From Fasciolopsis buskii (lineage: Eukaryota; Platyhelminthes; Trematoda; Plagiorchiida; Fasciolidae): a stretch of 64,000 bases of DNA. Below, piece by piece: positions 17,641-62,413 of this stretch (positions within the stretch are counted from its first letter, which is position 1; the number at the start of each line of letters is the position of its first letter). The position numbers were made by a program, and so were the translations under genes. Location of the stretch: contig LUCM01002455.1 in the NCBI GenBank assembly GCA_008360955.1, positions 212,716-276,715 of the forward strand, given 5' to 3'. The notes below the pieces were generated by a model. That model was not told the DNA's origin, did no database searches, and was given only the letters and a program-made list of their open reading frames with translations.

Positions 17641-17699
17641 CGAAGCTAGGAGGTAAGTGTATTAGACAGAAGAGAGTTCGGCGGGATGCTAGTTCTTAA

Positions 17700-20297: not shown

Positions 20298-23200
20298 CTG
20301 TGTGGAATATGCATAAGTATGGAATGGATAAGGAACTTAAGATTGGTATTATAAGAGCTTCGGAATGACTATTTTCCTAGGCAAAGAAAAGGAAAGCGGA
20401 TGTTTCAGATTACGGCGTGGTGTCAAGTATATAATAATCGGTCTAGTAGAATCCAATAATGCTGCTAGATCAGGAAGCAATATTTCATTTCGACAAAACG
20501 AAGACTAATATGTTAGCATTCATCATGAGGTATAACTCACCATCAAGGAAAGATGGAAGCATCGCACAGCTGTTTCATTCTTGTTAGGAGTAACTAGCAG
20601 TGCATACCATGAAGTTAAACATGCTGGTACGAGCATGCTCAATAAGCGTAATGACTAAGATGTTCGACTCACAATCGTTCGTCCCGAGTTTGCGCCTTAG
20701 TTCGGTCGGGTGGATATACACCACTGACGATTCCCAACAAAGATGAAACAACTGCACAGTGTTTCCACAGTCTCTTAACGGTGCATTGAGCACTATACCA
20801 CATACTGAATAATTTCAGGTACCATATCGTCTGCAACTGGCATTGATAACAGTACTTTAAAAAATTTGCACAGAAATAAACACTGATGTGGGGTACACTG
20901 ACCGAGGGCAAACAACTAAGACTCGATCATTAACCCCATAACGGGCCCAGAAACAGTAACAAGCAGTTGCCATTAGCTGAGGATGAACGTATTATTAAAT
21001 TTATTCTCTGTCACCGTGGGTTTTGTTTGTGAATAAACCCAGTTACATGATTAATAAATTGGACCACTGAATCCCCCATCTCAGACAACCAATAAAGCGT
21101 AGCACTGTGCGACAGAACAAACAGAACAGGTAAATACATCAAATCTAAATTTTTACACCCAAGATTTTGTTTTCTAACCATAATTATTGAAGGTTTGGAG
21201 TTAGTAGAATTCATTATGATTTGGCGGCAAAATATCCAACGCCCACTCATTTCATAGAAACTGTAATTGATCAAGTATTCCAACAAAAGCAGATTGAAAT
21301 TGGCTAGTGCATTACAAAACGGGATGGTCAACAATGAGGATGCACCTTAACATGGCGTGGTGGCAAACGTCCTCCATGACCCAACGAGTTACACAAGAAG
21401 GCCCATCACAAGCTGCTCTAATCACGAATGGAAGATCATTGGGTAGAGGCCTACTGGTCCTCCAGGACACTGGGGGTTCATCTGAGCTGTCAGCTTAGTC
21501 GTAAGTGAGTAGAAGAATAATTGATCCAAGTAGATGGGCTTCCAGGCAACCAAATCCCACTGCCCAGTGAGCAGGTCCTTGTTGGAACCGACGGATAGGG
21601 TTGAAAACCCTAATCGTTCGTCTGCTTAGCTGCTGGACTATATAGGAGTATCCGACCGCCATTCCCCATGAATCACACGCAAACAAAGAGTTCTATACTG
21701 CACCGAGCGGAGTGGGCAGTGAAGAGTATACTACTCCTCAGAGTTCCCTCTCTTTTATTCAACCTGTCTCTTCTGTCTCCAACCCAATCTCTTTGCCTGC
21801 TCTGCCAACCCATAATATCCCCACTGATAACACGCCCGATACTCGCAACGGTTCGTTGTCAAATAGTTTAGTAGGTGGTTTTCATTCTGTTAGCTCCTCA
21901 CATGTTCTCAAGCCTCGTCAGCCTGTGAATCTCGGTTCCTTCAATGTGCGCACTTTAATGCAGGCTGGTCAACAAACATGATTAACTCTGAGAGTGGACT
22001 CACTTTCGATTGATATTTACTGCGTGAGTGAAACACGAATTCACGATTCGAGTAGAGTAATTCAACTAACTGCCCCTAATGTATCGCCAAGATATTTTTT
22101 CACACTTCAGGAGACGACGCGGCTCAGGCTGCGGGTCAATGCGGGGTAGGAATAGTCTTGAGTGAGAAGGCCTAAACAGCACTTTTAGACTGGATCCCAG
22201 TCAACAGTCGCTTGTGCGCCGTAAAACTGCATGGATCAGTCGGCGTCCGGAAAGATAGTAGTGTTAAGCGCAGTTTATTTTTCACCTCGGCATACGCCCC
22301 AACAGATTGCAGCACTGAAATGGAGAAAAACGAGTTTTATAATGACCTCGTCACCCTTGTTCGGAAGAACAAAGGCTCTGACACTGTAGTGGTGGTAAGT
22401 GATTTTAATGCACAAGTTAGATAACTGAGTGCATCGGAGTCCTGTTTAGGTGGGCGATGCGCCTTGCCTGTCCAGCGAACAGATAACGGGGAAAGACTTC
22501 TCCAAATCTGTGTAGACAATCACTTATTCCCATCTAGTATGAATTTCCGACGCAGTTCGTGTCGCACAGCGACATGGCGTTCTAACCCGACAGGTAGTCT
22601 GAGTCAGATCGACTATGTCGCAGTAAGCTACCGTTGGCGCGGTTCTGTTCAGAATTGAGGATCATACTGGAACACGTACGTCGAATCGGACCATACCTTA
22701 GTTTTAATACGATTTTTGCTGTAGCTCAATGGCCACCGGAGCAGATCGCAAACTGGGTTGGCTGTTGGATGTCTGTCTGATTCGGCTGTTAGCACCAGTT
22801 AAGAACGGAGATTATCCGATCAGCTGAGCATCCTCAAGAGCAGCATTATAGATGAGCGTTGGGATCAAATCAAACAGATTTCGTTTGTGGTCCTAGATCT
22901 AGCGTTCATCAAAGACACTGGATCTCGAAAGAGTCACTGAGCCTGATGGTGCAAAAACGCCAGTTCGCTAACTGCATAATGATTAAGATGTGTCGACATC
23001 TACAACGTCAAGCGACAGTAGGCCTTGAGAATGACCGTGAGAACTGGTTGGTTAAGTTAGCCGTAAAAATGGAATTAGCACTTGTTCCAGGTTTTAGTCA
23101 AAGACTGTTCAAGCGTATACGCGACACTGGCGGGCGTCGAACTTCGGTTAGTGAAGTCATATGTAATAGAAATAGAGAGCCCATTCATAATAGACAGTAA

Positions 23201-26200
23201 GGACTCAACCGTTGGTCTGAAAATTTCAAGGATCAGTTTAGCCGGCCGCACGCTAATGCACTTAGTCCGATGATCGCGACTGCTAATCTTTGAGATATGC
23301 CTCTTGACCCTGCAGCGGAAGTGAAAGTACAGTCGAATATTCGACTGCTGAAGAGGGGAAAACAGCCGGTCCCGACAAATTCCCCACGTTCTCTCCAAAC
23401 TGGACGTAGAGGTTATGGTTGGAACGAGCAACGTATTCCTATATCATGAAGTGAGTCACTGATTGTGCCCTTCTTCAGACAGGGAATGCATAGTGATTGT
23501 AGTAATTGTCGTGAGATTAGGTTAATTGCGATGGTTACTAAGGTCTTTGTTCGATAACGCTGCGCCGTTTGATACCGATTCGCGAGATTAACATCCGCGA
23601 ACAGCAGGCCGGATTTCGTTCAGGTCGAAGTTGCACCGAACAGCTTTTCAATCTTCGGCAATCACTCGAAACATGCCATACACACCGCCGCCTTACGATC
23701 GTAGTCTTTCTCGACTTGAAAGGCGCGTTCGACTCAGTGAATCGGTTTCTGTGAGATCAATGGCGTTGAGGAAGTGATAGTGAATCCTAGCGGTTTTTAA
23801 CTACCAACAACTCTGTCAGTAGTAAAGGTATATTCTGACAACTCTTCCAATTCCCGATAACGACTACGCGACACCGTTACCACCACACGGCATAATCTGG
23901 CTGTTCACTGTCTACTGACTACTGAGGTAGTAGTGAGTTAGACATTGAGAAGCTCATGGAGCGCCCGGAGTAGGCTGATTCGATTATCCCGAGACCCGAC
24001 AAAGTCTACGGACATTGGTAGGCAGAATACATTGATACATTGGCATTAAAATGAACAGCCAAGATGACATTTCAACTGAAAATTATTCTTTTTTGCAAAA
24101 ACAGGGGAATATCGACCAGTGCAGGCAATCAGAGTAAAGCTATCTACAGGAATTCCGGCAATGTAGCACATACTGTGTTAGCACAAACGAATAGCAGAAC
24201 AAAACAACTAAAATTAAGCGGAGAGGAACAGATCAAATAAATTGGTCGGTCTATGCTTACCATTGATTCTCGGTAGTATCGATAAGACATAATATCCCCG
24301 ACAAGCGAGACCATGGGTTGGACGTGCCTCGCGACAATTTCATCCAGGTCCTCAAATTCTTCATCCCCAATTATCAGCACCCGCCCGAGCGAGAAACTAT
24401 TTGATTTTTCTTTCTCTAGGACGTCTATATGCTGCATAATGCCTTCATCGACTTTCCAACTGACGGTTAGGTGATCAGGGCCCTTGAAAACCAATGTACA
24501 GACACATCAATCTTAAAGACTGGGTGAATCAGATATGACTGGCAAAAGAAGCAAAATGTTAGGATACACAACACGGGTAGGCTAAACAGAGACAGAAACA
24601 AGAAGCACAACCGATGGTTTACTTGTGAGATAACATGGATATGAAGGAAATAACGCTAATTATTAAGACGGGAAGTGGGACATTGTGGAGAGGAGCATCT
24701 TTCGATTCATGATGATTGTAGTTCTTGCGACCAGCAAGTAGACAACGTTTGGTCGCCATAGATGAAAAGTTGAACGCAAGAAGAAAAAATCAGTAGAACG
24801 AAACGACTGATTCCGGTTTTAGTACTAAGGTAATTTTGCCGTGTCCTCTAGCGTTGTGCAAACAGACATTGCTAACTTTATCAACTTAGCAATACCAAGT
24901 TAAAAAAATTAAATAGTGGCCTGAAATATGAATTATCGAAAAATTGTGAATTAAAACATATCTAACCCCATTAAAAATAATCCACTCCGGGAAAGGGATA
25001 TTCAATTTTGTAGGAAGCACTCACTTTCCGACTAGGACGAATTACAATGCCCCCTGGTTCCATGTCCGTTTCCATTGAGACCAACTGATCGTAACTGATA
25101 TTCTTGAAGTATGGATGAAAGATCACGCGAGATAAGTAAGGTGTTGATTTTTCCTTGGCTTTAGCTTTAGCTTCTTCTTCTTCTCGAATATCACGTTCTT
25201 CAGCTTCATAGTCATAAAACGGATCAGGACGTGGACGCCATATATGTTGATCATCCTGAAAGGGAAAGTGCATGAAAAGGAGCAAATAGCAGAACACAAA
25301 AGTTTACAACTTACGCTGGAATAATGAACAAGTCGATATTAATCGATATCTAGAGTACTTTTCCACCTAGGTTTTGCGAATATTACTAAGAAGCGTAACC
25401 ATGCATCATTCTCCAAAACAAAGACGTCATTGGTGAAGTCCTTAAACAATCATATTATATTACTGGATGCCGACAAGCCATTGATTTCGTAGATCGCGTA
25501 CGACGAACACTCGTCTACCATACCGTGCCCTATTTTATATTCTTCCTAAGGAATGGAAGAAGCCATGTGGAGGCCAACAGATGACGTGGCAACGTGGGAT
25601 GAGAAAATGTACAGCGAAGTTAGGCAAAGTAGGTGTAGACTGGAAAACTGGGGAAGAAACCGTGAAACTGTCGAACGAATTTGGTTCGGTTCAGAGCAAC
25701 AAGGTCGCGGACTGTTTACTCGGTTTAATATTCCAATCTCGAGTTTCTTAACCCGCAAGTTTCTAATCTTTTTCATTCCTGTTCTTCTAGAGGTTGCACA
25801 TCCAGCAGTTGTGTTGTGTGAAGTCATAATACTTCCCTATTTCGGTATTTCTCGTTCGAACTCGATTTATTTGTGTTAACCAATTGATAGCCAGTGAAAC
25901 TGGGACGATCATCACATGACAGGCACAGATCTTGGTGATATGAACTCCGTAAATTACCATGTGTCATTTGTTATTGTGTTTTCACTCGCACGTTGGTAAG
26001 TATGAACGAATCGTGTCTTAGTGCCGGCTTTCGAAAAGCTAGACGTGTACAGGCGAACATTTGAACCCCAACACTGTACTTACTGTTCAATTTTTTGTTT
26101 CGGATGACACAAAAGACATTCACAATCAACCGACGGGACAATCTTTTCGGATTTTCCTTATCCAATTAATGTATTGAATGTCAACTAGGTGAGACGAACG

Positions 26201-29200
26201 ATGGGACCACCAGTGTTCACATTTTATTAATGAAATGTGTAATGGTTTTATTTTGTCATACTCGTCAAACTATCCGTGGGTTTTTTTACCCGATTCCAAT
26301 GTTCCAGTTTGTTTTGTCATCAAAACACGGGAGACGAAATACAGGAATTCCAATGTGGCGAATTAGACAGTAGACAGTTACGAGTGATCGTGAAAGAAAT
26401 TGTAATTTGGTCTACGTCAGAGATGACACGAGAAGAAACAAACTGTGCATATAGAGGTTAGACTAGCTACAATGTGGTGTCAAACAATTTTTATTAGGCT
26501 CATTCATCTCATCTAATTGATGAATATACGAATCGTCGTACATCGGATAGCATTTCACGTGTGCTTGACATGTACGTGACTCGAAAAAGTAGAATTCATA
26601 TCGTTTGATGGATTGTTATTTTTTGGTTATAATCCGAACGAGATACGCATGGGTTAGCTAACACAATGGACATAGAGAATGTGTTTGGTAAGCGACACTC
26701 GAACTTCCTTTCCGTACTTTCGCAGACCCAGCCAGGGCTGACGAGGTCCCCTCATTCCATGATATGGCCAGCGCTAAATTAATCCATGAACAGCCACTGC
26801 ATTAAAGGAACACTGTTCGGTTGCAAGCCGTCAGAAAAGATATGTCTTGACAAGACAACACGCCCAAAAAAAAACATGTACAAGAAGACCACAATTCACA
26901 CGGCTGCTACAATTCAGACGTTCGGTGATGCAGACCAAATCAATACGGACTGAGCACCCTTGCTTCATCATCAAGCCTCATATTTGAACAAAATCCGGAA
27001 CCAAAATTCAAAAAAACCTTGGATCACTGCAAATAAATGTAAAGAGAAATATGCTTTCAGATCAGACATCCATAGCCCCAAATAATATGTCGAATAATAA
27101 GCGAAAAACAACGTTAGTGTTAGTGTTAGTGTAATCAGCATATACCATACAAAGAGAGGATTATTCCAAAAATGAGTGAAGAAAATGTGCCGTTCGGAGA
27201 CAGGCCTGTTCTTGTTTCGGCAAGAGAGCTTTTCTTACTAGAATCATTGGGAAGGAAATGCCGTATAATAGTCTGCGTAGTAATTCAGTGAGTGGAAATG
27301 ACTACAAAACTACTTGAATGAAGTCTACAAGAAGACCACAGCAGAAAGGACACAAGTTTGAGTTATATTTATAGTTCATGGATTTTCACTTAAGGTTGGA
27401 AACTTCTCGATTGGCCGAATCCATTCGATCCAATCACTTTCGCGAAATGTTTGGATTTCAAGACGGTTCGTAGTTAAGTTTTCATTGGTTGCTTGTCTAC
27501 GCAAGCCAGCTGGCTTGCATGTAAAATCACGACAGAATGACCTTGACAGTGTACTTGGATTATCCCGAATGACAGTTACAGGCTTCTAAGCAATGGACTA
27601 TAAATATCTGTCTCCAAATGTGGAAAGATCTAAGAGATTACACTCGGTCAAACATTTGTTAAAACATCGTCATGTACGGAGATCTCCACAGCACTGGTGC
27701 AAATGCTATATTGACAAATGGGAGTAGTGAACAGAGAAATGCTGGGTGTCATACTGTACCTGCCAGTGTGGGTTTATATGAATCACACTGTTCATGTATC
27801 AGTCAAATCTTTCTGTGGCATATTCTTGTTTTTCATGAAATTTCCAAAAACCAAATATTTGGAACGACGAACATCTATCGGAAAATCGATGCAGTGAAAC
27901 TGGGTAAAGAAAGTAAATGAGATCGGCAAAAGGTCACTTTGGATTAAACGAAGGCTTCTTTGGACTGTTTGGTTACCCGAAACCAACTGGGACAACCGCT
28001 CTAACTACATACAATATACTCTCATACAGAATATTTCATATCTTCGGTGAGTCTACTAACAGATCATACAATCCACTCCCGTACAATTTCTCTGTAGCAC
28101 CTTGTTATCGGCATCGTTTAGTGTTAAACATAAAGGGAAGATCCACCGACCGGTATCTATTACTCTAGGATATACGTCGCTATAGAAAGAATGGATATGC
28201 ATGATGGATAGCCAGTGGACTTACACAGGAAATACAGTCTGACTGAACGAGGGTAAAATTTTCAATTGGTCTAATTTGACAGGAAATGACTGCACAAATA
28301 AAACTCGCCCCCAAATCAGGATTAATTGTGTTTTGTGCAAAAACAAATGAATCGTAGAACAGGTGTGGTGTTGTCTCCCCCAACACTATGGTCTTTTCGT
28401 TGTCTCAGGTTGCATAACTTGGATCGAAATCAGTCCACTGCTTACTGGGAGTCTGCATTCATGTCTTACCACCATTGAGTGAATTCCGTTTTACTGATAC
28501 TACGTGTGCTGACGCATTTTAAATTGAAGCGATTCAATAATGGAACTGGACGAATCTCCAAACACAGAGCTCCAGTTGGGGAATCTAAGTGTACCACAGA
28601 TGGACTACGACTCGGTGCGATCACTTACCACTACTATTCGTTCAGATCCTCATACCATGCTACAGATAGAAAAAGCTGCACCAGGTAGCCTGGGACATAT
28701 TGACCCAATCATGAACAAGGTTCTACATGGACGAAGTGGAATGGCGGAAGCAAAATCATACACTGACTTCGGAGAAGCAAATGAGGAAGATAGTCGACCG
28801 AAAAAGCATTCCATGGGTCCATTTGAGAGAGAGGGTAAATGCGGCATGATATTTGCTAATCTGTACTTACCGACACACTCGTGGTGGGACGATGGAGTGA
28901 GCTCACGGAAAAAATGTTAATGGTTACTAATTCTTTAATAAGATATGTTACAAAAAATGGCAAAACTGACTTGAAATGCAGAGTTCCCTGAGAGGAGAAA
29001 TGAGTGTGACAGCGAGTACAAAATTGTCAAGCAGGTTCAGATAGACAGTCACAGCGGAGAAGCTATATATTGAGGTTGCATGGCTTAAGCAGAGGGAACC
29101 TACACAGGTCCCTTACGAAATTATATGGAAACATGATAAGAGTAAACTTACATGTTTACGAGGCTCGTCACTTTGGCAGGTTGGCTACATTGGGTCATGT

Positions 29201-53200: not shown

Positions 53201-56200
53201 TGGGGTTCACTTTTTTGTCGTAAGTGATTACATTTAACTTAAAAAACGAATAAACTTGCACGAAGTAATAGAATACGAAAATCTGACCAAAACTTACATT
53301 ATGGAGCTGTAAAAATAGAAGAGAGCCCATAAGGTCCACAACAGGTTTCCCACTGATATACTTGAGTGCGTAAAGTGGATGAGATTCATCGATTTCCTTG
53401 ACACCTCGCGGTGTGGGTCGAACGGTAATAACGGCCTGTAACTGAAACATCTGTCGCATCATTCTTCGAACAAACGGTTCTCTGGAAATTTGGAAAGCAA
53501 GCATATAACGAGAAGCTGTGAGGGCCACGTCTGCTGAAGGGAACTGGGGACTCAAAAAGTCGCCAGCGGCATCAAGAGGCAGCATGGGACACTGGTCAAC
53601 ATCGTGCCGCAAATACTGATCCTGAACATTCTCGGCAAACTGTGCCGCCGAAAGACCAAAACGCTGCACTAAACCACCAAGACCTGCTCTTTGTGCGACT
53701 TCATAAGAAGCAGTAGCTCGAGCCTGCCTCTGGCGGATAGGGCGCCCTGTGAAAGGATCAGTGCTCATTGTGACGGGGACAGACTTGTCCACAGCATCAA
53801 GGTTGAAGTCTTGTGTTGACTCGCCACCACCGGATTCATCCTACACAACCGGTAATAAAAAGTGGGAGTAAGAACAAACCTTTTCAACATTATCTTTATC
53901 CTTTTCTCGTTTGAACCACTGTTTCATCGGCTCCGCGAAACACGAATAATACAATAAATAATTTAAACGAACATCGTTCACTTCCTCCACGGACTCAGCG
54001 CTGCGAACGCTAAAAACAAGTCACAGTACTTTGATGAGAAAATATGTTAACTAACCAAGCAATAAGCTTTAACAGGGATGCCATATGTTTCTTGTGTATG
54101 CATCCAGGATCGTCCGGAGCGGTACTACCGAAGAAATCATGTAGTTTTTGCAATATGTGAATCATATTTCGTTTTCTTTGTTGCAAGATTGTCCATTTTT
54201 CGTCCAACTGATAGATGCGCCATAAATCCTTAATGTTCAGATCGCGTTCAATACACTCTTTTCGATAGAGTGCAATGAAAGGGACCTCAAACAAGGATTC
54301 CCTCATCAGTTTTAAAGTATCACGAATTTTTGGTATCACAGTAGTTGGCTAAAGCAATCAGAGGATTCAAACAAACGAAACCCACTTTGAATTCCGGCTC
54401 TTCCTTAAAAGCTTGTGAATAAATCCATGCAGCTTCATCGGCCAATTCCTGTTGTTCCTGGGCATAATTGGCGGATGAGGGATCAACACGGTGTACAGGA
54501 ACTTGACGAAGCTGAAATCTTTCAGGTATATCCGTTTTTCGAATACGATCATCAGCAACACTATAATAGCCATGTTCGAGGTCACTGGGATCAAAAAATT
54601 CATAAACTCGATCATCCATAAGCAAGTTAGATCGTGGTTTCCGGCTTTTTCGGCGTGGTCGTGCAGAAGCCTCTTCGTCATCTGAATACTCAAGCTCCGA
54701 TTCCTCGCTGTACTCATCGCCTTCAGTTTGGCCTTTTCGGAACGCCTCAAATTCAGACAAATCGAAATCAACACCGAAGATCGATTGGGCTTGTTGAAGA
54801 GCAGCGCCCTTATGCACGACTCGTCTAGCTGTTTTAGCAGGAGCTTCATTCGCACGATCATCCACAATGAAATCTCGTATATCTGAACGAATTTTAAGGT
54901 AAAAAGGCATTAAATCTGCGGCAAATTCTAGCTCAGAAAATAGTCGCCAAAGTAGTGATATTATATTTTCACTTGAAGAATCTTATTATGAAAACCATTC
55001 TTTCTCAATCTCGTTAAGATATAAAGATCATACAGCATTGCGTAAAAAGTTCGATCAACAAACTGAGGCATTCCACATGGGAAAACAAAAGACGATGCAA
55101 CAAGTCAGACATGACATCAATAAATTTTGTCTGAAGGGCAAATAATGCTGCGTTTAACGCGTCGGTTTCATTACCTGCCAACGGGCTCATTCGTAGGTGA
55201 AGAATGCAGTAGCACGGGAAGGAGAGAGTACCGCTATTTTCAGCTTGTATAATCACTAATCTTGCATGAACGTTTTCTGGTTTTGGTCGATACCTTGAGC
55301 AGCGAATAATAATACAAAAGCCGAAAAATTACAAGATGGAGACCATAGAGGAGTGGAAATATTTCGAACACAAGAACACTACAGACTGGAACATTCAGCC
55401 ATATCGCCTAAAGTCTCTGATCATCTCGTCTGAGGGTCTCGTGAACCCAAACTCGGTAATCTGACTCGAATTACTAAGAACGGTGCACTGGTTAGGATTT
55501 TTATGCCTTTTTTCCACGTCATGGACTGACTACCCTTACTCATTTTCCAATACCAAAACATGTCCCGAAAAAAATGTATCCCGGAGTAATCCACATGAGG
55601 GCATCTGATACACTCCCCAACCGCCCTAACCTAGTCAAACTTGTCACCTACTCGACTAACTGAACTTTACGGCCTAATACACTGCGTCTAACCCTAGTAT
55701 TGCTAATAAAATTCTCCTACTGATGTCCGACAACATTACAAAGACATCGGTATTCAGACGACGACAATTTTTGCACACCTTTTGCCCGCAATGGTCACGT
55801 TTATGAACCGTGCAGCAGGACCGATTTTGCCACTGCTGTGTGATTTCAACTTATGATCAATAAGCAAATGTGCCGATGCTTCTCAACTGGGTAAATATTA
55901 ATCGATCCTCTTTTATATACGAAGACACTCCATCCGACATATGGCCACCTGGCGAAATGCAACTGTCCAAGTAACAAAACTTACATACTTCACCAAACTC
56001 TCCTGTTTGAAGAATAAGGTTCGGCTTGGTGCCAATCCGATCTTGCAATAGCATTCACTACTTGGAACGGGCGAGATGTATGAGAAGGTTGGGAACAGCC
56101 TGCAACTCACCTGGATCTTCACTCAGTAGCAGAACACCAACCGAATATAGACAAATATTAATGCCACTCTTCTTATGAGTAGACAGAGTGATTTTCACAC

Positions 56201-59192
56201 TCATCTCGACTATCAAGTTGCAAAGGAAGAGTGATGGTGCGTAACTCTGACCGACACTACTTGTCATGAGAAGTTTAAATGAAAGATGGCCGTATATATG
56301 AATTCGGCTTTGGTTGTCCGATACGGAGATTCGGAGAAAGCAATATAATTCACTGGCACTCATGACGGAGAGCCAGTGCCAGAGAACTGCATCGTCGATT
56401 GGGACCAATGCCACTTTCAAATCAAGGAAAACAGAAATAGTGGACCCACAGATTTTCTAACATCAGTAGCATACAGGTGCAATTGGCACAACTGCGAGCC
56501 GGTCGGAAACCGGCTTGATTTTCACGAATGCGCTCTTTGCGAGAACTGGACAATCGGGAGAATAACTCCACCGAGCAGTTTGGGTAAAACAATTACCAAA
56601 CCAATTCCTTTGCAATTTTTAAATGAGGACCAATCACCTATTTTGCAGACCGGTAAAATGATCGATTCATTGGAACCAGCAAGTTGTGAGGTGGCATGTT
56701 GTCTTTCGTTAAGTGCTGATGCTGGTTAATACGCCCAATGGGCTTCGGCTCACGGTAGTTTTTTTCTGTTTCTGTCCTTTTTAGGTCGGTCATGTAGCTC
56801 CTTCGAAGACCGCTGTCCCAGTGCATGTTACGTCACAATAGCTCTTAGGAATCGGCTCCTTTGACCAGAGTGACCCCAGAAGCTTTGGCAACTCCAGTGC
56901 TCAAACTTCGCCGCCAATGCTTGAAAATGATGGAGACAGACCATTTGATCCAGCCTCTTTGTCCTTTCAGAAAGCTTACCTCTTAAGGATGACTGGTGCC
57001 TAGGTACATTACAGACATAAGTGGAAGGTCAACTTTGGCGTTGGGGCAATTAAAATGCCCCATAGTGTTCCGCCCAACAGTACTAACAGTGAGCTGGTGG
57101 ACCGTCGGATTCCTTAGTCATCTCGCTTATCCTCAGGTTACATGGATCGGTGCTCCTAATCAGTTGTGAAGATTACGACTATTGCCGACAGCCACAGGCC
57201 TTTCCATTCCTCCGCACTTCCCTATCCACTGCTGCTATCGTTTATTTCTCAAGCTCTTAGCTAGTTGACACCTGGGGGTCTTGCGCTTCTGACTGTATGT
57301 GAAATCCGCAGGGACGGACCAGTGGGCACTCAAAAGAGCAACTGAGGTCGGGGATATTCACAATTTTTGAGTTTTATATGGCCCAGAGCCCTATGCGGCA
57401 GTAACCGCGAAGTACAGGGCTTCTTCGACCTGGTTCCAGTGCTCGCTCGGGTCCTGACCGTTTTGTCGAAACGAGCGCCGCACAGAAAGCTACGATCGGA
57501 ACTGAGGTATGCGACTATCATTTAGAAGCACCTGTATGGAACGCATGGCTTTCGTGTTAGCACGACTACAGAGTAGGCGAAAACGAAATACAGCACAGGT
57601 CAAAACATGATGAGTCCATGGATCTGGACCAGAATGACCGATCCACGTCATCGATGACCAATAGCAATGTGACCAATCTGAGTCGGATGCCATGAAGGCG
57701 AAGCAGGGTGCCGAGTGAGTCTAGGTCACTTTTCATGGCAAATGTCGGTGCTTTCCAGAAACAATCTGTGGTCGGAACAAACTTGGATAAGGTGACTACC
57801 ATTGTCGGTGCGATTGGCGAAGACAAAAATGGGTCTTTGATATGTCGTCCCGTCTCCATTACATGACAAAGTTAAACGTTGAAATCACCAGCAACTACCA
57901 CAACGTCTGCTGAACGGATTAATTAGGATAAGTCCTGAGAGAACTTGTCTTTGGCCTCAGGAGAGCTGTAATTAGTGGGCGCATACACACGAGCCATTTG
58001 TTATTGTTATATATAAACATTATATATATATATGTATATATACGTATTATACACCAGCTTGAAAACAAGCATGGTGTCAACGCAACAACATGCACACGGA
58101 ACTTTACAAAATGTGGATAAATAAGGAGGAATAATAAACCACAGCCAACTGTTTTTTGTGTTGTCACCGCACATATTTTGTGATCTTTTTGTTTGTTTCC
58201 GGATTATTTTTAAGGAGTACGAGTCCCACAGACAGACCACAGCATTCGCGCCACTGATGCCGGTTTTGAGCTATATCTATCAGCGTCTCCAACTAAAGAC
58301 AATCCACATCTCTTGGGCTCCAACCAGAAAGGCGGGGTGCACCAACCGAGGCCAAAGCTGGAACTAAAATCTTTAGACCTCTACGCCAAGTCACAACCTA
58401 CCCCTCACATCGCTTCTTCCAGCCTTGCTTAGTACGCGCAAAAAGAGCATAAAAAGATAAATGATGGGCAGACATACGCAATGTGTACGTGGTACACACT
58501 ACTGATCCTTAACTGGTTTTAAGATCGCAGCAAAAACCTCTGACAACAAAGTGAGTTAAAATAAAAAAATCCGATGGTTATGAATTCCTTTTCCAACATC
58601 TCTAGGATTGTTGGGTTTCAGCTCTCAATTGCCAGAAATAATAAGCAGCTAATCTAGGCAGTTTGTAACGCGGTAATCTAACTTCAGCACAAGCGACTAC
58701 AACACTTATCAGTGGGTGTTTTCGATGCTCTGCTTCGCATTCTAGAACCAAAGGGAAGGATATGACTTGATAAATATTTTCAATGAATCTTCAGTAAAGC
58801 GAAGTGCAAAATTCAGGCCATCTTTAATAATAAGCTAGAAGAAAAGATAACATCAAGAGCAAAAATTACTAAGATTCGTTCTGAAAACCTTTCTTGATGA
58901 AGATTCTGTTATCGATGTAAATCGAATTTGCCCCAAATAAATTAATTGGTAAATTACCATCGTACTCTTCCTCTTCCTCCTCTTCTTCTTCGTCCTCGCC
59001 TGTCATTCTAAAGTTAGCCGGTTTGCTGGCTACACCTCGACTGCTGGGCATTTCTTCATCATCTTCATCCTCAAATATTTGGCGTGCAATCACCTCGCGG
59101 TCGTCGTGTGGTTCATGAGCCACTTTCTTTGCTGCCACTTCTTCATCGTCTGCTTCATCATCATCATCGTCCAAAACCAGGCGCCGCTTCGG
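20052..59192 (-). CDS. SUPT6H: Transcription elongation factor SPT6, partial gene in 14 exons
   Basis: SPT6 is a nuclear histone chaperone that travels with RNA polymerase II, restores nucleosomes behind it, and binds the phosphorylated Rpb1 linker through tandem SH2 domains. I assembled 14 minus-strand exons by matching translated stretches to remembered animal SPT6 order and checking GT/AG ends: 59192-58958, 54882-54386, 54348-54056, 54009-53880, 53840-53298, 44341-44099, 43734-43393, 41668-41147, 40695-40421, 38997-38643, 33963-33739, 25255-25025, 24482-24261, 20297-20052. They total 4359 nt, exactly 1453 codons, with no internal stop. Intron phases are 1,0,2,0,0,0,0,0,2,0,0,0,0. Animal SPT6 is about 1700-1800 residues, so roughly 100 N-terminal residues and the C-terminal Ser/Thr/Pro-rich tail are missing here. 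No start codon, promoter or poly(A) site was identified. Introns range from 37 to 8956 nt, and the large ones contain retrotransposons. Confidence 0.95.
20600..21320. repeat. 720-bp repeat module, copy 1 (upstream of RTE copy A)
   Basis: Nearly identical to 34188-34912 (constant offset of 13588) and, from about 20857 on, to 45821-46286. A diverged relative of its first part is at 62640-62800. It sits directly upstream of the RTE 5' end in copies A, C and E but not in B, F or G, so it may be a separate repeat hit by the same ancestral insertion. Short frames on it are not supported as genes. Confidence 0.75.
21325..23755 (+). mobile_element. RTE retrotransposon copy A, 3'-truncated
   Basis: 5' region followed by an endonuclease domain: NLGSFNVRTLMQAGQQ, then after a stop IDIYCVSETRIHDSS, RLCAVKLHGSV, SAYAPTDCS, VVSDFNAQV, LLQICVDNHLF and QIDYVAVSYRWRGS. 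The frame is broken by stops at about 21979, 22170 and 22422 and near 22657. Up to 22925 it is ~99% identical to copy C, then abruptly more diverged. The reverse transcriptase start is present (23569-23754, REQQAGFRSGRSCTEQLF, VVFLDLKGAFDSV), and the element stops short after it. Lies in SPT6 intron 13. Confidence 0.88.
24261..24482 (-). CDS. SUPT6H: SPT6 exon 13: N-terminal SH2 completion
   Basis: Residues 1298-1371. GPDHLTVSWKVDEGIMQHID and [30 protein letters not shown] complete the N-terminal SH2 and lead into the C-terminal SH2. The acceptor is tttcaag at 24483; donor gtaagc at 24260, phase 0. Confidence 0.95.
25025..25255 (-). CDS. SUPT6H: SPT6 exon 12: linker and start of N-terminal SH2
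   Basis: Residues 1221-1297. An acidic/lysine-rich helix (EERDIREEEEAKAK) precedes RVIFHPYFKNISYDQL and GGIVIRPSRK, the first half of the N-terminal SH2 domain with its phosphate-binding Arg region. Acceptor ctttcag at 25256; donor gtgagt at 25024, phase 0. Confidence 0.95.
25488..25640 (+). mobile_element. RTE 3' coding fragment
   Basis: About 150 bp matching copy C around 38200-38330 (tcgtctaccataccgtgcc, cctaaggaatggaagaa, aacagatgacgtggcaacg). Identity stops abruptly near 25640. A small remnant close to SPT6 exon 12. Confidence 0.8.
25661..28179. other. Intron 11 of SPT6, no gene recognised
   Basis: AT-rich intronic sequence with short frames only. A gttagt hexamer repeats about three times near 27114-27130. 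No retrotransposon domain identified. Confidence 0.45.
28180..28330 (-). mobile_element. Probable RTE 3'-end fragment
   Basis: The minus strand reads CAVISCQIRPIENFTLVQSD, which lines up with the last codons and 3' UTR of copy C (CCHFLSNQND then gtttgtatagttagactg), and ends in a gatgg-like tail near 28195. Short and diverged. Confidence 0.45.
28540..28920 (+). CDS. Hypothetical 126-codon open frame in SPT6 intron 11
   Basis: ATG to TAA on the strand opposite SPT6. The conceptual protein starts MELDESPNTELQLG, is acidic at the start, and contains DFGEANEEDSRPKKHSMGPF and a Cys/Trp-bearing end. I recognise no domain, signal peptide or membrane segment. It is longer than most chance frames nearby, but there is no splice, promoter or homology support. 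It could be a nested gene, an exon of an unannotated gene or chance. Confidence 0.2.
   Translation: MELDESPNTELQLGNLSVPQMDYDSVRSLTTTIRSDPHTMLQIEKAAPGSLGHIDPIMNKVLHGRSGMAEAKSYTDFGEANEEDSRPKKHSMGPFEREGKCGMIFANLYLPTHSWWDDGVSSRKKC
29551..29700. repeat. ACAAT/ATACA-type pentanucleotide repeat
   Basis: An array of acaat units, pure at first (four or more tandem copies at 29560-29580) then interrupted by ataca, acatac and aacat variants to about 29700. A simple-sequence tract in SPT6 intron 11. Confidence 0.9.
29760..32109. other. Intron 11 of SPT6, no gene recognised
   Basis: Short open frames only, including 31067-31327 on the minus strand (86 codons, not recognised). Ends at an assembly gap. 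Confidence 0.4.
32110..32134. other. Assembly gap (25 N)
   Basis: A run of N of fixed short length. The base after the gap is the exact end of RTE copy B (gagatcc, the reverse complement of ggatctc). Confidence 0.99.
32135..33420 (-). mobile_element. RTE retrotransposon copy B, endonuclease part
   Basis: Minus-strand copy of the same 5' half as copy A: 32637-32849 gives RLCAVKLHGSV...DFNAQV and 32403-32597 gives LLQICVDNHLF...YRWRGS, with the same stops. 32135-33301 is the reverse complement of copy C 35348-36514 at roughly 99%. Beyond 33301 only a diverged 5' region continues to about 33420. Lies in SPT6 intron 11, sense to the gene, 318 nt beyond the exon 11 donor. Confidence 0.88.
33739..33963 (-). 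CDS. SUPT6H: SPT6 exon 11: S1 RNA-binding domain
   Basis: Residues 1146-1220. VWSHFDNNECPGQ, then RVQLDNGIAGFVPL and CRVVKIDITKFNVELTCKKS, a full S1-type beta-barrel core. Acceptor tctcag at 33964; donor gtaagt at 33738, phase 0. The exon is enclosed by RTE copies B and C in inverted orientation. Confidence 0.96.
34188..34912. repeat. 720-bp repeat module, copy 2 (upstream of RTE copy C)
   Basis: Nearly identical to 20600-21320, with rare substitutions such as gtgtgaca versus gtgcgaca near 34696. Directly precedes copy C and lies within SPT6 intron 10. Confidence 0.75.
34913..38556 (+). mobile_element. RTE retrotransposon copy C, near full length
   Basis: About 3.6 kb, the usual RTE length, antisense in SPT6 intron 10. 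The 5' half encodes the endonuclease (SAYAPTDCS, DFNAQV, SYRWRGS) broken by the lineage's stops. The RT region opens at 36831 (VESNIRLLKRRKAAGLDELL, LTPIRESNIGKQQAGF), shifts frame near 37285 (HTPPPYD versus TIVVFLDLKGAFDSVD), then runs clean from 37451 to 38473. The 3' end is a tgatgatgatgag tail at about 38544-38556, typical of RTE microsatellite-like tails. Confidence 0.9.
37451..38473 (+). pseudogene. Intact 3' part of the copy C reverse transcriptase frame
   Basis: An uninterrupted 340-codon frame: SSFETTSGVRQRCPISSFLF (RT palm), MEDALGGLQNVGFKLE, LDYADDVVCLFE with an intact YADD catalytic box, SPSKCKVLLQDW (thumb region), RSVLLYGCETWSMRVGDVRR, LEVFDNRCLRSMARI, LSRLRWLGHVLRM, and the C-terminal GWDRKDPSTSWLE and SCCHFLSNQND. 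The ATG at 37451 is internal to the ancestral polyprotein; upstream domains are in another frame or broken, so a working enzyme is unlikely. Confidence 0.85.
38643..38997 (-). CDS. SUPT6H: SPT6 exon 10: death-like domain to start of S1
   Basis: Residues 1027-1145. ELDLDAFAEELKRQ and GDKHITLYDIRKELNNRY are near-invariant in SPT6; HETPETFHVGRLV and WMCPFCRQDNF lead to the S1 domain. The donor gtgagt at 38642 sits about 85 nt from the 3' tail of RTE copy C, which lies antisense to the gene in the next intron. Confidence 0.96.
38998..40420. other. SPT6 intron 9, no element recognised
   Basis: 1.4 kb of intron without a recognisable gene or repeat domain. The short frames at 39869-40084 and 40075-40284 are unsupported. 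Confidence 0.5.
40421..40695 (-). CDS. SUPT6H: SPT6 exon 9: HhH and DLD start
   Basis: Residues 936-1026 plus two bases. Contains LTNRTQL, VLTNCAGFIKIDT, ILDSTRVHLESY and KKMAVDALEYEDTDE; all are landmarks of the second HhH motif and the start of the death-like domain. Acceptor gcattttag at 40696; donor gtgaat at 40420, phase 2. Confidence 0.95.
41147..41668 (-). CDS. SUPT6H: SPT6 exon 8: YqgF end and HhH start
   Basis: Residues 762-935. DSDMQRLTNFMVKHRPQVIVIG completes the YqgF sheet. LLRQAISLGRRLQDPLAEFAQ, FHPLQ-type FRWHPLQD and FINRVNEVGVDVNR follow; the last opens the helix-hairpin-helix module, whose FVSGLGPRKALHML hairpin ends the exon. Donor gtaagt at 41146, phase 0. Confidence 0.96.
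41669..43392. other. SPT6 intron 7, no element recognised
   Basis: 1.7 kb of intron; a 112-codon minus frame (42074-42412) has hydrophobic stretches but no recognised family. Confidence 0.45.
43393..43734 (-). CDS. SUPT6H: SPT6 exon 7: YqgF/RNase H-like domain, first part
   Basis: Residues 648-761. Begins LCAKRLFNYLQVAPYP (animal KLYNWLRVAPY), then a Gly/Asp/Ser-rich variable loop, then ARVLAMALKD and the VHLDSNGEVVDFLHF strand pair that opens the YqgF fold. The fold is RNase H-like but is thought to be catalytically inactive in SPT6. Ends DDLKKTK; donor gtactt at 43392, phase 0. Confidence 0.94.
44099..44341 (-). CDS. SUPT6H: SPT6 exon 6: core helices
   Basis: Residues 567-647. AARDKLITYSIHVPAE continues directly from the previous exon; then FFHQDEFSSLVQAWNEQRS and LREKLLESSQQAVLR, matching the YYRDEFSHQVQEWNRQR and KELKNKLL segments of animal SPT6. 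Acceptor gtgtag at 44342; donor gtatgt at 44098, phase 0. Confidence 0.95.
44804..45819 (-). mobile_element. RTE retrotransposon copy D, endonuclease part
   Basis: Minus-strand copy with the same 70-codon (45270-45482) and 64-codon (45036-45230) endonuclease fragments and the same stops as A, B and C. Its 3' end is cut at about 44804. Its upstream side ends at the single N at 45820. Lies in SPT6 intron 5. Confidence 0.88.
45820..45820. other. Single-N assembly join
   Basis: One N joins the minus-strand copy D (ending gaaaaccac) directly to the plus-strand module/copy E (starting aaaaaatttg). Both sides are high-identity repeats, so the join may not reflect true adjacency. Confidence 0.95.
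45821..47119 (+). mobile_element. 720-bp module (partial) plus RTE copy E, truncated
   Basis: 45821-46286 matches the module upstream of A and C. 46287-47119 matches the RTE 5' region through the endonuclease start (46674-46943, NLGSFNVRTLMQAGQQ then the shared stop). Identity ends at ggaatagtct, where a Jockey-like relic begins. Confidence 0.85.
47130..48360 (+). mobile_element. Decayed Jockey-like reverse transcriptase
   Basis: Pieces in order: LLNAKDC-TKQNLDSDDVIS near 47310-47370 (from the LLNEAQSGFR-type motif), LVLLDILKTFDRVWHVGLL (47424-), RTNSVRANVVLSHSFRVNVS and VHQGTVLTLTLFLLCIADF (47575-47680), then HAWKYCRQVWGDVLPTS (48106-). These match the RT A-to-C motifs and downstream thumb of Jockey/CR1-type elements. 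Stops and frameshifts throughout; the YADD box is lost. Confidence 0.75.
48404..48903. repeat. 500-bp direct repeat, copy 1
   Basis: Colinear with 55341-55840 at a constant offset of 6937 and almost identical (one difference noted, tttgctact versus tttgccact). The copied segment is part of the decayed 3' half of the minus-strand RTE element at 55336-57990. Confidence 0.92.
48895..49135 (+). mobile_element. RTE C-terminal fragment (plus)
   Basis: The plus strand reads AFASLRHLKLRGDICLSIEG and VVGSILLYGAKTWPARAHMR, which match the post-RT segment of RTE elements (compare GRVYCAAVRSVLLYGCETW in copy C). About 240 bp, broken. Confidence 0.65.
49400..49859. other. No gene recognised
   Basis: A 77-codon minus frame (49403-49636) and short plus frames, none recognised. 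It precedes the dispersed repeat copy 2 and may be its upstream part. Confidence 0.35.
49860..50260 (+). repeat. Unclassified dispersed repeat, copy 2
   Basis: Matches the reverse complement of 10230-10700 in ordered blocks (tcaaatagtccctgctgagg; gaggacgaagg; gaccaaccacgggcggcgta; gatcgtttagtcaaagg). Frames are broken here, so any coding role is ancient. Confidence 0.6.
50300..50812 (+). mobile_element. Jockey-like RT N-terminal relic
   Basis: SQITRRKIRQVLRSLNAGKP then PGLQRTGL and KKRAPILVPVLYCLSICF (50342-50580), the region just upstream of and including the first RT motifs. Further on, fragments like VKLPMFGFSTVLVS and NKRARSTRFEV reach the edge of RTE copy F, so copy F probably inserted here. 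Confidence 0.65.
50813..52700 (-). mobile_element. RTE retrotransposon copy F
   Basis: Minus-strand copy from the 5' UTR (near 52700, matching copy G 61530-61560) through the endonuclease (51814-52026, the same 70-codon piece and stop) to the start of the RT region (51010-50830, VESNIRLLKRRKAAGLDELL), 3'-truncated. It has private deletions, for example around 52258 and 51757. More diverged than A-E in 51340-51560. Confidence 0.85.
52790..53165 (+). mobile_element. Jockey-like 3' end relic
   Basis: FTCHRRAIVSLYHIYNPYLD and LFFFPKTAQVAVHPSATDFY then SPLFKSITNK resemble the end of Jockey/CR1 ORF2 (HRRAVASL, FPRTARLWNSLP, LFKSRVN). It is probably the far side of the element split by copy F. Ends about 130 nt from the SPT6 exon 5 donor. 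Confidence 0.6.
53298..53840 (-). CDS. SUPT6H: SPT6 exon 5: Tex-like core
   Basis: Residues 386-566. After a variable linker (DESGGGESTQD) it reads AGLGGLVQRFGLSAAQFAEN, LSPQFPSADVAL, YMLAFQISREPFVRRMMRQ and DESHPLYALKYISGKPV, all in the order known for SPT6. The donor gtaagt follows CTC CAT AAT at 53297, phase 0. The next intron is 8956 nt and holds RTE copies D, E, F and Jockey relics. Confidence 0.95.
53880..54009 (-). CDS. SUPT6H: SPT6 exon 4: helical core continuation
   Basis: Residues 342-385. Contains EEVNDVRLNYLLYY, matching the DELKDVYNHFLLYY-type helix of animal SPT6, then a charged linker ending KDNVEK. An alternative acceptor 9 nt further in (after 54001) keeps the same frame, so the first three residues are uncertain. 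Flanked by 46-nt and 39-nt introns. Confidence 0.9.
54056..54348 (-). CDS. SUPT6H: SPT6 exon 3: helical core with FEVPFI signature
   Basis: Residues 245-341. Starts PTTVIPKIRDTLK and contains SLFEVPFIALYRKE and DLWRIYQLDEKW, both highly conserved in SPT6 and in the related bacterial Tex core. Acceptor tgctttag at 54349; the donor gttagt begins at 54055 after TG, phase 2. Confidence 0.95.
54386..54882 (-). CDS. SUPT6H: SPT6 exon 2: end of acidic region and start of core
   Basis: Residues 79-244. The split codon G|AT joins EYD to DIRDFIVDD, an SPT6 signature. It is followed by IFGVDFDLSEFEAF, an acidic stretch, the YEFFDPSDLE segment and IPERFQLRQVPV, ending at ...AAWIYSQAFKEEPEFK. The region around FGVDFD/ERFQLR leads into the helical core. 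Acceptor ttcag at 54883; donor gtgggt at 54385, phase 0. The next intron is only 37 nt. Confidence 0.93.
55336..57990 (-). mobile_element. Decayed full-length RTE element of a second lineage
   Basis: Minus-strand pieces in order: endonuclease RVYAPTNYSSPEAKDKFSQD and ADVVVVAGDFN (57990-57870), then about 57860-57600 endonuclease debris; RT at 56570-56480 LFSRLSSSRKERIRENQAGF; 56420-56058 IHIYGHLSFKLLMTSSVGQ and LFLCNLIVEM (palm); 56054-55857 MLLQDRIGTKPNLIL and CYLDSCISPGG (thumb); then 3' coding debris to 55336. Its RT start resembles other fluke RTE elements but differs from copies A-G. Many stops. Lies in SPT6 intron 1. Confidence 0.8.
55341..55840. repeat. 500-bp direct repeat, copy 2
   Basis: Partner of 48404-48903, same orientation. 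Both edges fall inside the RTE sequence rather than at element ends. Confidence 0.92.
58010..58050. repeat. TA dinucleotide tract
   Basis: An interrupted (ta)n run with tatg/tacg variants, in SPT6 intron 1. Confidence 0.85.
58051..58957. other. SPT6 intron 1, no element recognised
   Basis: About 900 bp between the TA tract and the exon 1 donor with only short frames. Confidence 0.45.
58958..59192 (-). CDS. SUPT6H: SPT6 exon 1 of those visible: acidic N-terminal region
   Basis: Residues 1-78 of the assembled partial protein. A pyrimidine-rich acceptor ending ctctcag at 59193 precedes PKRRLVLDDDDD, then a basic-acidic stretch with REVIARQIFEDEDDEE and a run of glutamates. This matches the acidic region of SPT6 (the EKEAIAEEIF-type segment in animals), which in yeast binds Spn1/Iws1 and histones. 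The donor after GAT G (gtaatt, from 58957) leaves phase 1. There is no initiator Met here; the ATG/TTG codons are internal, so at least one exon lies further upstream and was not found. Confidence 0.85.
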
Positions 59193-59689
59193 CTGAGAGA
59201 TATGGGTTGACGAAAACGGAAAAAGTTATGATTGATAAGATGTTAACGACGGCGAAACTGAGAAGTTAAAACCACGTGATGGTCGTAACCTGTCATCTTG
59301 ATGTGCAGATTCAACTTATGAACAGGGGAAGCTTGTGAGCAAATAGCGACAAACATCAGCAGTTAAGGTTTGAAGACCAAAAACTGCCCAAGCGACCTGT
59401 CCATACCGACTTTTTCATGATCTGGCTGATACATGAGCAAGGTAGACGGAACAAACTGGGGCTCCTGAGCCCGAAAAATTGAGGAACGGGGATCTGAATT
59501 CATAATCCTGGGACTTGGAATCGAAGAGAAACATAACTCATCACTAGATCAGACACGGCAACGGCCAGGGCGACAGCGAATCGCTAACAATCATCAAACT
59601 GGCCGGATGACCGGGAATTTTAATCTATGACCTTTTGAGGTGATAAATATCACCGTACAACGTTAAGTAGCAATGTGAGTCCTAATGAC
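59193..59689. other. Upstream of the first visible SPT6 exon, nothing recognised
   Basis: The polypyrimidine tract and acceptor of SPT6 exon 1 occupy the first ~40 bases. No further exon is evident. Confidence 0.45.
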
Positions 59690-60960
59690 TGCTGTCTTCC
59701 ACATCGTTATATGTTTTATCAGAAAGAATGAATATGCAAGGTAGACAGAGTGAAGTGCCGAAGGTGAGCAAGAAAACAAAACCAACATAAAGAATACAGT
59801 CCGACTGTACAAGCGCATATTTCTTCAATCGTTGTGACTTGACAGAAAGTGACAACACAATCGCCACTGTTCACGGTTCGATGCCATATCTTTCAGCACC
59901 TTTACCAACCAGTCTACGTGCTAGTCGGACCCCAGCCATGAAGACGTGAGGGACTTACCCTACCCAAGTTCGTTGGTCATTTTTTTATTCCACGCTCTCA
60001 TGTCATCAGTTGACCTCCACACGGCCTCTTCCACTCCGAGGAAGGAACGGGAAGCAACACGCGGTACGACAAACGTTTTTCATACCGGGCACGTGCCTCA
60101 ACCAAGCTCGACAACCGACGGTGGATTATCCTCTGAGCCAGGGCCTAAAACTAGGTTCTTAGCTTTCACATTCATCACAGAGTCATTTATCAAATCCTAC
60201 GCAAACACCAATGACCAAAACCCTCCAAACGATAAACAAATGCAGCATGCAAACTTCATGTTTCGCAAACATACAACAAAACTAAGCACGCTGTGGTACA
60301 GCATCCACGACTTTTTAACTTCAGCAAAAAATCAGGTCGAGGCCACAAGTGTTTACTTTCTTGCTTTTATTTTATACCATTTCCCCCTGTGAGAGGATAA
60401 GTCGACTTCTTAGAGATCTCTGATTGCAGCCGTTCATGTGCCGTTCAGGACGCCACAAGAGCTTCAGGTCACCGTACATCACTCAAGCTAATTTCTTCTG
60501 CGGTGCTACCATCCTTAGTTAAGCCGCTGCCGAGGTAGGTGAAATGGTAGACAGCCGTTGGTTCCCCTCCATTTAGTATCAAGTTGGGCACTACTGTCGT
60601 CCAATTTTGTGACAGCATTTTGAAATCTGAAGATGCAAAGCACATGCCGAATAGAACCCTGGCCTTACAGTCTGTTTGGTGTATGCCGCGTACGTTTCCC
60701 TGGTTTCAAGCAAGCACAATGGCATCGGCGAAGTTTAGGTCACATTTCTTGGCGCCATTTAGAAGTTCGACATCAATATACTGAAGACCTCCGAAAGTAC
60801 GCTCCATCATTTTGTCGATGAGGAAGTAAAAAAAGGAACGGAGGCGGGGCTCCCTTGCTGATCGTTTCAAATGAACTTCATTATACACCATGCATGATTA
60901 CGCCACCATAGGCATGAGAATACAATGCTAGTGTGCTCCTTTCTTAGTTTCTCACTGGAA
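59690..60960 (-). mobile_element. Decayed RTE 3' half (minus)
   Basis: Minus-strand pieces: RT palm at 60890-60706 (MERTFGGLQYIDVELLNGAK, CDLNFADAI in place of YADD), thumb near 60620 (a KMLSQNWTTV-like segment), then 60030-59850 with the GWGPTST and 3' UTR part. 60170-60410 between them is unrelated to the copy C element and may be an insert. Ends near 59698. Confidence 0.65.
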
Positions 60961-61295
60961 TCTCCTTTGAATGGGATTTGTGGACAGAAGAAAAACGAGT
61001 GCGCATAACTGAAGAGCGGCAATAACCGCGAAATCAGTCGCTTGTTTCCAGGGAAATTTTGTCCATCCATCGATATTCGAAAAATATGGCTGAGAAGAAA
61101 AACCTATAAAATAGGGCCTTGCGTTCCCTTTCGGAAGGTCAGTATTGCATGATCAAGGAAAATCCTTCCTTAAATCACCATGGGATTCTTAAAGGAAATT
61201 ATCGTCAACTCACGATTCCAACGACACAAATGAGAGGATAGTGTAGTCCCAGGATAATTATAAACACTGCGTGCTTCCTTCGCCCGTATGAGTAA

Positions 61296-62413
61296 AAATT
61301 ACGAGACTGAACCTTGACGTGGTGTGACGGCTTCCGTGCCTCCATGATCCAACGAGCTATACAGGATGGCTTGTCTCAAGCTGAATATTCAATCATGCCT
61401 GGAAGGTCGATGGGTACAAGCAAGACGAAGTAGTCTCCTGATCCTCCAAGTTGGGGTTGATCTGAATTAGCAGCTCAGTCGGAAAAACGAGTGGAAGAAT
61501 AATTGATCCAAGTAAATGGGATCCCACCCAACCATATCCCGCTGCCTTGCGGTCAGGTTCTTGTCAGAACCAAAGACTTTGGTTGAGAACCCCAATCGTT
61601 CTTCTGCCTAGCGGCTGGACTCCCTAGCAGTACCCGTCCATCAATCTCCATGAGTTACACACCTACAAATAATTCTATACTGCATCGGTCGTCGCGCAGG
61701 ATAATCAGGATCAAGACCGCGCTACCCATTGCATCAAGCGGGGTGGGTAGTGATAGGTATGCTACTGCTCAGAGTTCCCTCTCTTTTATTCAACCTGTCT
61801 CTTCTGTCTCCAACCCAATATCTTTGCCTGCTCTGCCAACCCATAATATCCCCACTGATAACACGCCCGATACTTGCAACGGTTCGTTGTCAAATAGTTT
61901 AGTAGGTGGTTTTCAGTCTGTTAGCTCCTCACATGTTCTCAAGCCTCGTCAGCCTGTGAATCTCGGTTCCTTCAATGTGCGCACTTTAATGCAGGCTGGT
62001 CAACAAACATGACCAACTCTGAGAGTGGACTCACTTTCGATTGATATCTACTGCGTGAGTGAAACACGAATTCACGAATCGAGTAGAGTAATTCAACTAA
62101 CTGCCCCTAATGTATCGTCAAGATATTTTTTCACACTTCGGGAGACGACGCGGCTCAGGCTGCGGGTCAATGCGGGGTAGGAATAGTCTTGAGTGAGAAG
62201 GCCTAAACAGCACTTCTAGACTGGATCCCAGTCAACAGTCGTTTGTGCGCCGTAAAACTGCATGGATCAGTCGGCGTCCGGAAAGATAGTAGTGTTAAGC
62301 GCAGTTTATTTTTCACCTCGGCATACGCCCCAACAGATTGCAGCACTGAAATGGAGAAAAACGAGTTTTATAATGACCTCGTCACCCTTGTTCGGAAGAA
62401 CAAAGGCTCTGAT
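61296..62413 (+). mobile_element. RTE retrotransposon copy G, 5' part
   Basis: The longest 5' open frame of the lineage (61650-62012, 120 codons, MSYTPTNNSIL to NLGSFNVRTLMQAGQQT), then the shared stop and the endonuclease piece RLCAVKLHGSV...LVRKNKGSD. Identity to the family ends at ggctctgat (62413). The 5' UTR is more diverged from A, C and E and contains an inverted ggttctt/aagaacc-type stem around 61555-61595. Confidence 0.85.

Follow-up and report, generated by a model that had tools for sequence, protein, structure and literature searches.

In the window (the whole 64,000-nucleotide stretch of Fasciolopsis buskii DNA analysed here), the core of one broken RTE-type LINE is repeated in seven copies (A–G) within 42 kb. 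The copies go back to local duplication of a single dead one, and we consider it fairly probable (about 0.68) that this was false duplication in gap filling. Within the best-scored matches, sequence comparison showed this copying to be local and at the DNA level. For copies A–E we infer that it occurred in the assembly; in F and G part of it may be real and older, by local conversion or duplication.

Seven partial LINE copies in and beside SPT6

Exons of a fluke SPT6 gene were recognised in colinear order, with 67–97% identity to a Fasciola hepatica record and 69–95% to Echinostoma caproni, and their closest matches were fluke proteins. The introns hold many RTE-type LINE remnants. The gene, the seven copies, the DNA upstream of the element and the only two N runs in the window, both of which touch near-identical copies, are listed below. 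Spans are given in C-coordinates, a C-coordinate being the window position minus 33999.

14029..59195, reverse strand: SPT6 exons; copies A–F lie in introns and G beyond the first matched exon
20601..22926, forward strand: copy A, near-identical part (C-coordinates 190–2515); three differences from C in the first 28 b, then five in 2298
22927..23746, forward strand: where A goes on, still in register, as an older RTE remnant that differs from C by 23% over 800 columns; A as a whole (20601–23746) spans 190–3352
32110..32134, no strand: 25-N assembly gap in contact with copy B
32135..33316, reverse strand: copy B (1334–2515), halting on its 3′ side at the 25-N gap; two differences from C in 1182
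34189..36514, forward strand: the near-identical part of copy C, which holds the dead endonuclease and four stops
34416..34900, forward strand: 485-b stretch lying upstream of the RTE; scored matches to it came from A and C over its full length, from E over 454 b and from nowhere else
36515..38560 (end approximate), forward strand: copy C continued, RT region and RTE-like 3′ end with TGA repeats; C as a whole (34189 to about 38560) spans 190 to the 3′ end
44803..45819, reverse strand: copy D (1464–2480), halting at a 1-N gap; six differences from C in 1017
45820..45820, no strand: assembly gap of a single N, across which D and E are opposed in opposite orientation
45821..47120, forward strand: copy E (448–1747), beginning at the 1-N gap and ending abruptly in unrelated DNA; two differences from C in 1300
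50825..52719, reverse strand: copy F (1110–3017), a mosaic with a near-identical core inside a divergent RTE remnant and three small private deletions
61308..62412, forward strand: copy G (930–1970), a mosaic with a divergent 5′ part, a near-identical core and an abrupt end

We take A–G to be RTE elements. The original prediction that the RT end of C is open with an intact YADD held for the final 342 codons (37445–38473), but the frame changes upstream in the RT region and C is not intact. Window positions 37445–38470 matched PF00078 at 38.9 bits. The broken endonuclease of C scored 26.7 bits (E 5e-6) against PF14529, just under the cut-off of 27.4, and the open relative P0121, with 58% identity across 98% of the query, matched PF03372 above the cut-off. 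By homology, two features of RTE-type LINEs were thereby recognised: a predicted apurinic-type endonuclease domain and, downstream of it, a predicted reverse transcriptase with YADD. TGA repeats, seen in this single copy, lie about 10–20 b beyond the last matched base of C (38536). A search of solved structures gave no match.

Copy A was 0.2% different from C up to window position 36514, which was the single best break point of the pair, and differed in 187 of 800 columns (23%) from 36515 on. The difference between C and F changed by blocks, from 28% (C 1110–1339) to 1.3% (1340–1769) and 0.8% (1770–2291), then to 33% (2292–2479) and 6% (2480–3017), and that between C and G was 23%, 1.9% and 0.5% in successive blocks. 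The observed break-point statistic was reached by none of 300 shuffles in each of five pairs. This loss of likeness, in mid-element and in register (A/C, F and G), indicates that the near-identical stretches are not whole young insertions. Accordingly, the expectation that A–G are near-identical over the endonuclease stood for a shared core, which is nearly invariant among the seven copies, but for only part of each mosaic copy.

The B/C/E sequence is matched by none of A, D, F and G, which are also mutually distinct, so that at least five haplotypes are present. The core of F and G is about 1–2% different, and the private deletions of F (24, 20 and 33 b) are natural-looking. Both differences between B and C fall within 15 b of the B 5′ end. 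Unrelated sequence begins where D, E and G end, and A and C have left flanks that show no relation to each other. The 5′ flank of B resembled F weakly (z 2.8), and the score of 162 was below that of the highest shuffle (171).

DNA outside the element was carried along with it. With window positions 34217–34900 as the query, A and C matched over the whole length and E from base 231 onward. In this search the best 40 of 1250 candidates were scored and 45 matches listed, and the three matches that reached the 485 b at 34416–34900 were all on the window's scaffold. A dispersed repeat lies within the first 199 b of the query; the remaining 42 listed matches belong to it, and all stop short of the other 485 b. 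Duplication of these otherwise unmatched 485 b together with the LINE indicates that LINE transposition alone did not produce the copies.

The window contains a second near-identical pair, 48402–48920 and 55339–55858, with 98.7% identity. Full-length matches to it were on the window's scaffold only (2 of 40 matches); none of the other 38 exceeded 83% likeness or about 206 b in length. An 11-kb palindrome was also noted, and its loop was inspected by eye. A protein pattern scan of viral contigs gave 36 pattern matches with none confirmed, and a search with one DNA pattern gave no match.

Shared stops and copies elsewhere in the assembly

The original prediction named stop codons in the endonuclease that are common to every copy covering them, and this was confirmed site by site. 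The four stops, by their positions in copy C, are as follows.

35567..35569, forward strand: stop 1, TGA after QAGQQT; the same in A, B, D, E and G
35761..35763, forward strand: stop 2, TAA, gaaggcctaaacag; the same in A, B, D, F and G, E ending earlier
36010..36012, forward strand: stop 3, TAA after DFNAQVR; the same in A, B, D and F, G ending earlier
36244..36246, forward strand: stop 4, TGA after RGSVQN; the same in A, B, D and F

The site of stop 1 is missing from F, removed by the 20-b deletion. Stop 4 had been listed for A–D, correctly as far as it went, but the list was incomplete and F has this stop too. The local copies also have in common a frame change that lies between stops 1 and 2 and that the original prediction left unmentioned.

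The assembly (703,196,239 bases in 6974 contigs, the window being on C1477) was searched with two core sequences. With a 1228-b core, the best 40 of 8321 candidates comprised A–D at 99–100% and 36 matches at 82–85%, all of the latter on contigs other than C1477; E, F and G were not among these 40. With a 522-b core, the best 40 of 6192 candidates comprised A–D at 100% and 36 matches at 88%. Thus no near-identical core copy off C1477 was among the best 40 scored in either search, and the proposal of one amplified RTE lineage fails within that range. All 36 distant matches to the 1228-b core were fetched; for the 522-b core 21 of 36 were fetched as a second set, seven having been counted already and eight left out. 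The median difference among the 36 copies was 7.2%, and the family is 12–18% away from the local core. In a tree, six local copies (E omitted) were split from the 36 others by a fully supported branch, and F and G grouped together as sister to A–D.

That most genomic copies lack the stops had been named as a finding that would refute the prediction, and this is what was found: none of the 36 other copies had a stop at even one of the four sites, all 36 having sense codons there. Among the 21 copies of the second set, stop 3 was absent and stop 4 was present in one. In 27 of the 36, the sites of stops 1 and 2 lay one base further apart than in the local copies, suggesting that the frame change is local too. 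On this comparison the stops are read as inherited from one dead local copy, and neither a dead master nor recoding is needed.

The same pattern appeared on other scaffolds. Among the 36 other copies (630 pairs), four same-contig pairs ranked 1–4 in divergence (0.08%, 0.25%, 0.81% and 3.7%). In the second set, whose 21 copies come from 16 further contigs and form 210 pairs, seven same-contig pairs ranked 1–7 at 0–0.77%; the nearest different-contig pair was 3.1% apart, and none of 10,000 label shuffles gave a result as low. In all ten pairs below 1% divergence in the two sets, both members lay on the same scaffold as each other. Scoring the best ~40 by query similarity lists twins together and so inflates the proportion of same-contig pairs that are near-identical. 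Twins on different contigs would be listed equally, so this bias fails to explain the absence of near-identical pairs across contigs.

Assembly gaps and block ends

Gaps were inspected on seven scaffolds, within a few kb around the copies. On six of them (the window's, C6633, C2202, C6098, C1736 and C4131) a copy lay within 2 b of an N gap; the C351 pair had no gap in the stretches fetched. One member of the pair was cut by an N run 0–2 b from the end of the near-identical block on C6633, C2202 and C6098, and likewise on C1736 and C4131. Contact with a gap was seen in three of six copies with a twin and in three of 30 without one. A report on false duplications (homotype or heterotype) in draft assemblies (PMC9516828) treats a gap separating the members of a same-scaffold pair as a primary mark of them and names incorrect gap filling in connection with them. 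A gap at or between a same-scaffold pair was found on the window's scaffold and on five of the six others. Gap contact alone is no proof of an artefact, as a real identical tract also tends to break an assembly internally.

Up to the gap edges, no difference was seen in 1365 b on C6633 or in 647 b and 58 b on C2202. Beyond the gap, the far edge of C2202 had no difference in 58 b and then 19 in 358 b, that of C6098 none in 855 b and then 31 difference columns in 439 b, and an RTE 3′ end formed the far side on C6633, with a likeness to the twin of only about 72%. The gaps held 3194 N against the 13 b that the twin would need on C6098, and 3372 N against 806 b on C2202. Differences also occurred close to some gaps: three within 51 b in D, six in the last 56 b at the near edge of C6098, and 11 at 46–87 b from the gap edge on C4131. 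Two copies on C4131, 4.3 kb apart and about 2.4% different (indel included), are gapless in the stretches fetched and resemble a real duplication.

Block tips beside unique flank were rich in differences (3/28, 2/15, 7/28, 3/45 and 3/26) in five blocks (A/C, B and those of C351, C6633 and C2202), tips selected post hoc, with 0–5 differences in the remaining 1.2–2.3 kb of each. The left end of D, with one difference, and the right ends of E and G, with none, are counterexamples. Such clustering is expected if reads spanning the junction keep the true local bases and the rest is filled from a neighbour.

Origin of the copies

The course of events that we favour would be as follows. An old, already dead RTE-type LINE copy and adjoining DNA without other scored matches sits in the SPT6 locus, and its sequence was copied locally, up to seven times within 42 kb, with the stops inherited. 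For A–E, contig ends and gaps in RTE remnants would have been filled or extended from another copy on the same scaffold. Such filling would leave identical blocks that reach N gaps and are joined to unrelated or divergent RTE sequence, and the filled blocks would often begin within a read length of unique flank. Two simpler forms of assembly error were rejected: one collapsed contig pasted unchanged is ruled out by the five haplotypes, and a genome-wide consensus as gap filler by the 12–18% distance of the family from the core, so that any filler must come from the same scaffold. Copies F and G fit assembly error worst. The 1–2% difference of their core and the deletions private to F suggest that they may be real older events.

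The same copying could have taken place in the fluke genome itself, by ectopic gene conversion, by break-induced copying with template switches or by small local duplications, which we regard as possible though less than even. A dead RTE segment and adjacent DNA would then have spread within about 40 kb in both orientations, and gaps would arise since near-identical tracts assemble poorly. The number of haplotypes, the deletions in F, the mosaic structure of F, G and A/C (in register, flanks divergent), the C4131 and C351 pairs that are gapless in the stretches fetched, and the grouping of F with G as sister to A–D all agree with this. It accounts less well for tract ends that meet N gaps on six of seven scaffolds, for D and E opposed in opposite orientation across one N, for N gaps kilobases beyond the duplicate's need on two scaffolds and for block tips shorter than a short read. 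Conversion gives no reason for such regular stops near the element edge, and conversion alone does not yield the left ends of A and C or the right end of E in non-homologous DNA. In its general form, that the genome really copies kilobase stretches of dead RTE and adjoining DNA nearby in either orientation, leaving near-identical sets private to a scaffold and about 3–12% apart between scaffolds, the idea seems to us unlikely. The DNA-level duplication offered in the original prediction thus survives in a broad sense, a single dead copy having been copied locally and probably just in the assembly.

Repeated retrotransposition of a dead master in trans by an active relative was also proposed, and near-identical copies that share lesions, in a family as numerous as this one (8321 first-look candidates), are what it would give. 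We hold it to be very improbable, as it is contradicted by the flanking DNA, the varying 3′ ends and the mid-element break of A/C. The flank copied with the element in A, C and E had no other scored match, and no near-identical copy was found elsewhere in 703 Mb among the best 40 per search. Only C reaches the 3′ end, the other six of the seven copies being without it; A, D, E, F and G end at five different internal points within gap-free sequence and B at a gap. Scanning of A, C, F and G revealed no target-site duplication of at least 6 b around A, F and G, and around C one 6-mer only, of repeat-tail sequence. The combination of common 3′ end, variable 5′ truncation and target-site duplications that marks retrotransposed copies of one master was not seen, nor, among the best 40 scored per search, was dispersal of near-identical copies over the genome. 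Tolerance of the stops, by recoding or in a selected non-coding role, would fit a core nearly invariant among seven copies, but this invariance is local and extends over upstream DNA. The shared frame change and the sense codons in 36 of 36 others contradict recoding, and the near absence of stops 3 and 4 from the 21 further copies also speaks against tolerance, which we rate as the most improbable explanation of all.

If the duplications are false, near-identical LINE pieces in this draft assembly would not stand for recent transposition, and the low-divergence end of a repeat landscape drawn from it would likewise be uninformative on that point. In a fluke genome study (PMC7370270), a peak at Kimura 0–5 in Paragonimus kellicotti is taken as recent and current activity; that assembly was gap-filled with PBJelly, and the project is described there as using an in-house gap closer, plus PBJelly for one species. 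If the copies are real, a local DNA-copying process would operate in this genome, which would be remarkable and worth study.

As in trematode LINEs of the RTE clade, the elements have an endonuclease and an RT related to trematode proteins and the YADD motif, and the TGA repeats of C may be a short repeat tail in place of poly(A); the elements differ in that every copy in the window is broken and that identity to the listed proteins does not exceed 64%. Ectopic gene conversion between dispersed repeats is a source of in-register mosaics, and the alternation of identical and divergent stretches in register resembles it, whereas some ends here lie in non-homologous DNA and at N gaps. The false duplications described in PMC9516828 were shown by read depth and linked reads and were mostly genes, exons and larger segments, whereas the window copies are short, embedded in divergent repeats and found in either orientation. 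What both have in common is near-identical duplicates on the same scaffold, at or between gaps.

Near-identical direct copies

Two direct copies of an old LINE remnant (window 48402-48920 and 55339-55858) were 98.7% alike, and no full-length match to this pair was found elsewhere among the 40 scored matches of the genome search. Lying outside the endonuclease-bearing core common to the seven RTE pieces (copies A-G), the pair repeats the pattern of near-identical copies confined to one scaffold. On C4131, another scaffold of the assembly, two direct RTE-bearing copies (45331-47500 and 49600-51796) lay ~4.3 kb apart and were ~2.4% different (indel counted); no gap was present at either within the stretches fetched. 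The C4131 pair looks like a real local duplication.

Other repeats and the N run

Two further repeat features were located in the window:
11032-11370 and 11412-11750, palindrome whose two arms, each of 339 b and 99% complementary, enclose a 41-b loop
34233-34409, dispersed repeat of ~175 b upstream of the endonuclease of copy C, with 77-82% identity to 42 matches on other contigs, among the matches listed

The palindrome could be a genuine hairpin, or it may have arisen as a fold-back artefact. At its end (63684-64000), the window abuts an N run of 4486 b, from position 276716 of the scaffold (C1477) onwards. An RTE 3′ remnant, 89% identical to copy C, reached this run, and the first base past it was the start of another RTE remnant.

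Reverse transcriptase of copy C

In copy C, 342 open reverse transcriptase codons (37445-38473), including YADD, were far better preserved than that copy's endonuclease, and showed 50-57% identity to the ten best protein matches. Three protein matches (P0005, P0007 and P0114) were fluke-like reverse transcriptases under bacterial names (Streptococcus dysgalactiae and a Pseudomonadota bin), labels perhaps due to contamination of those records.
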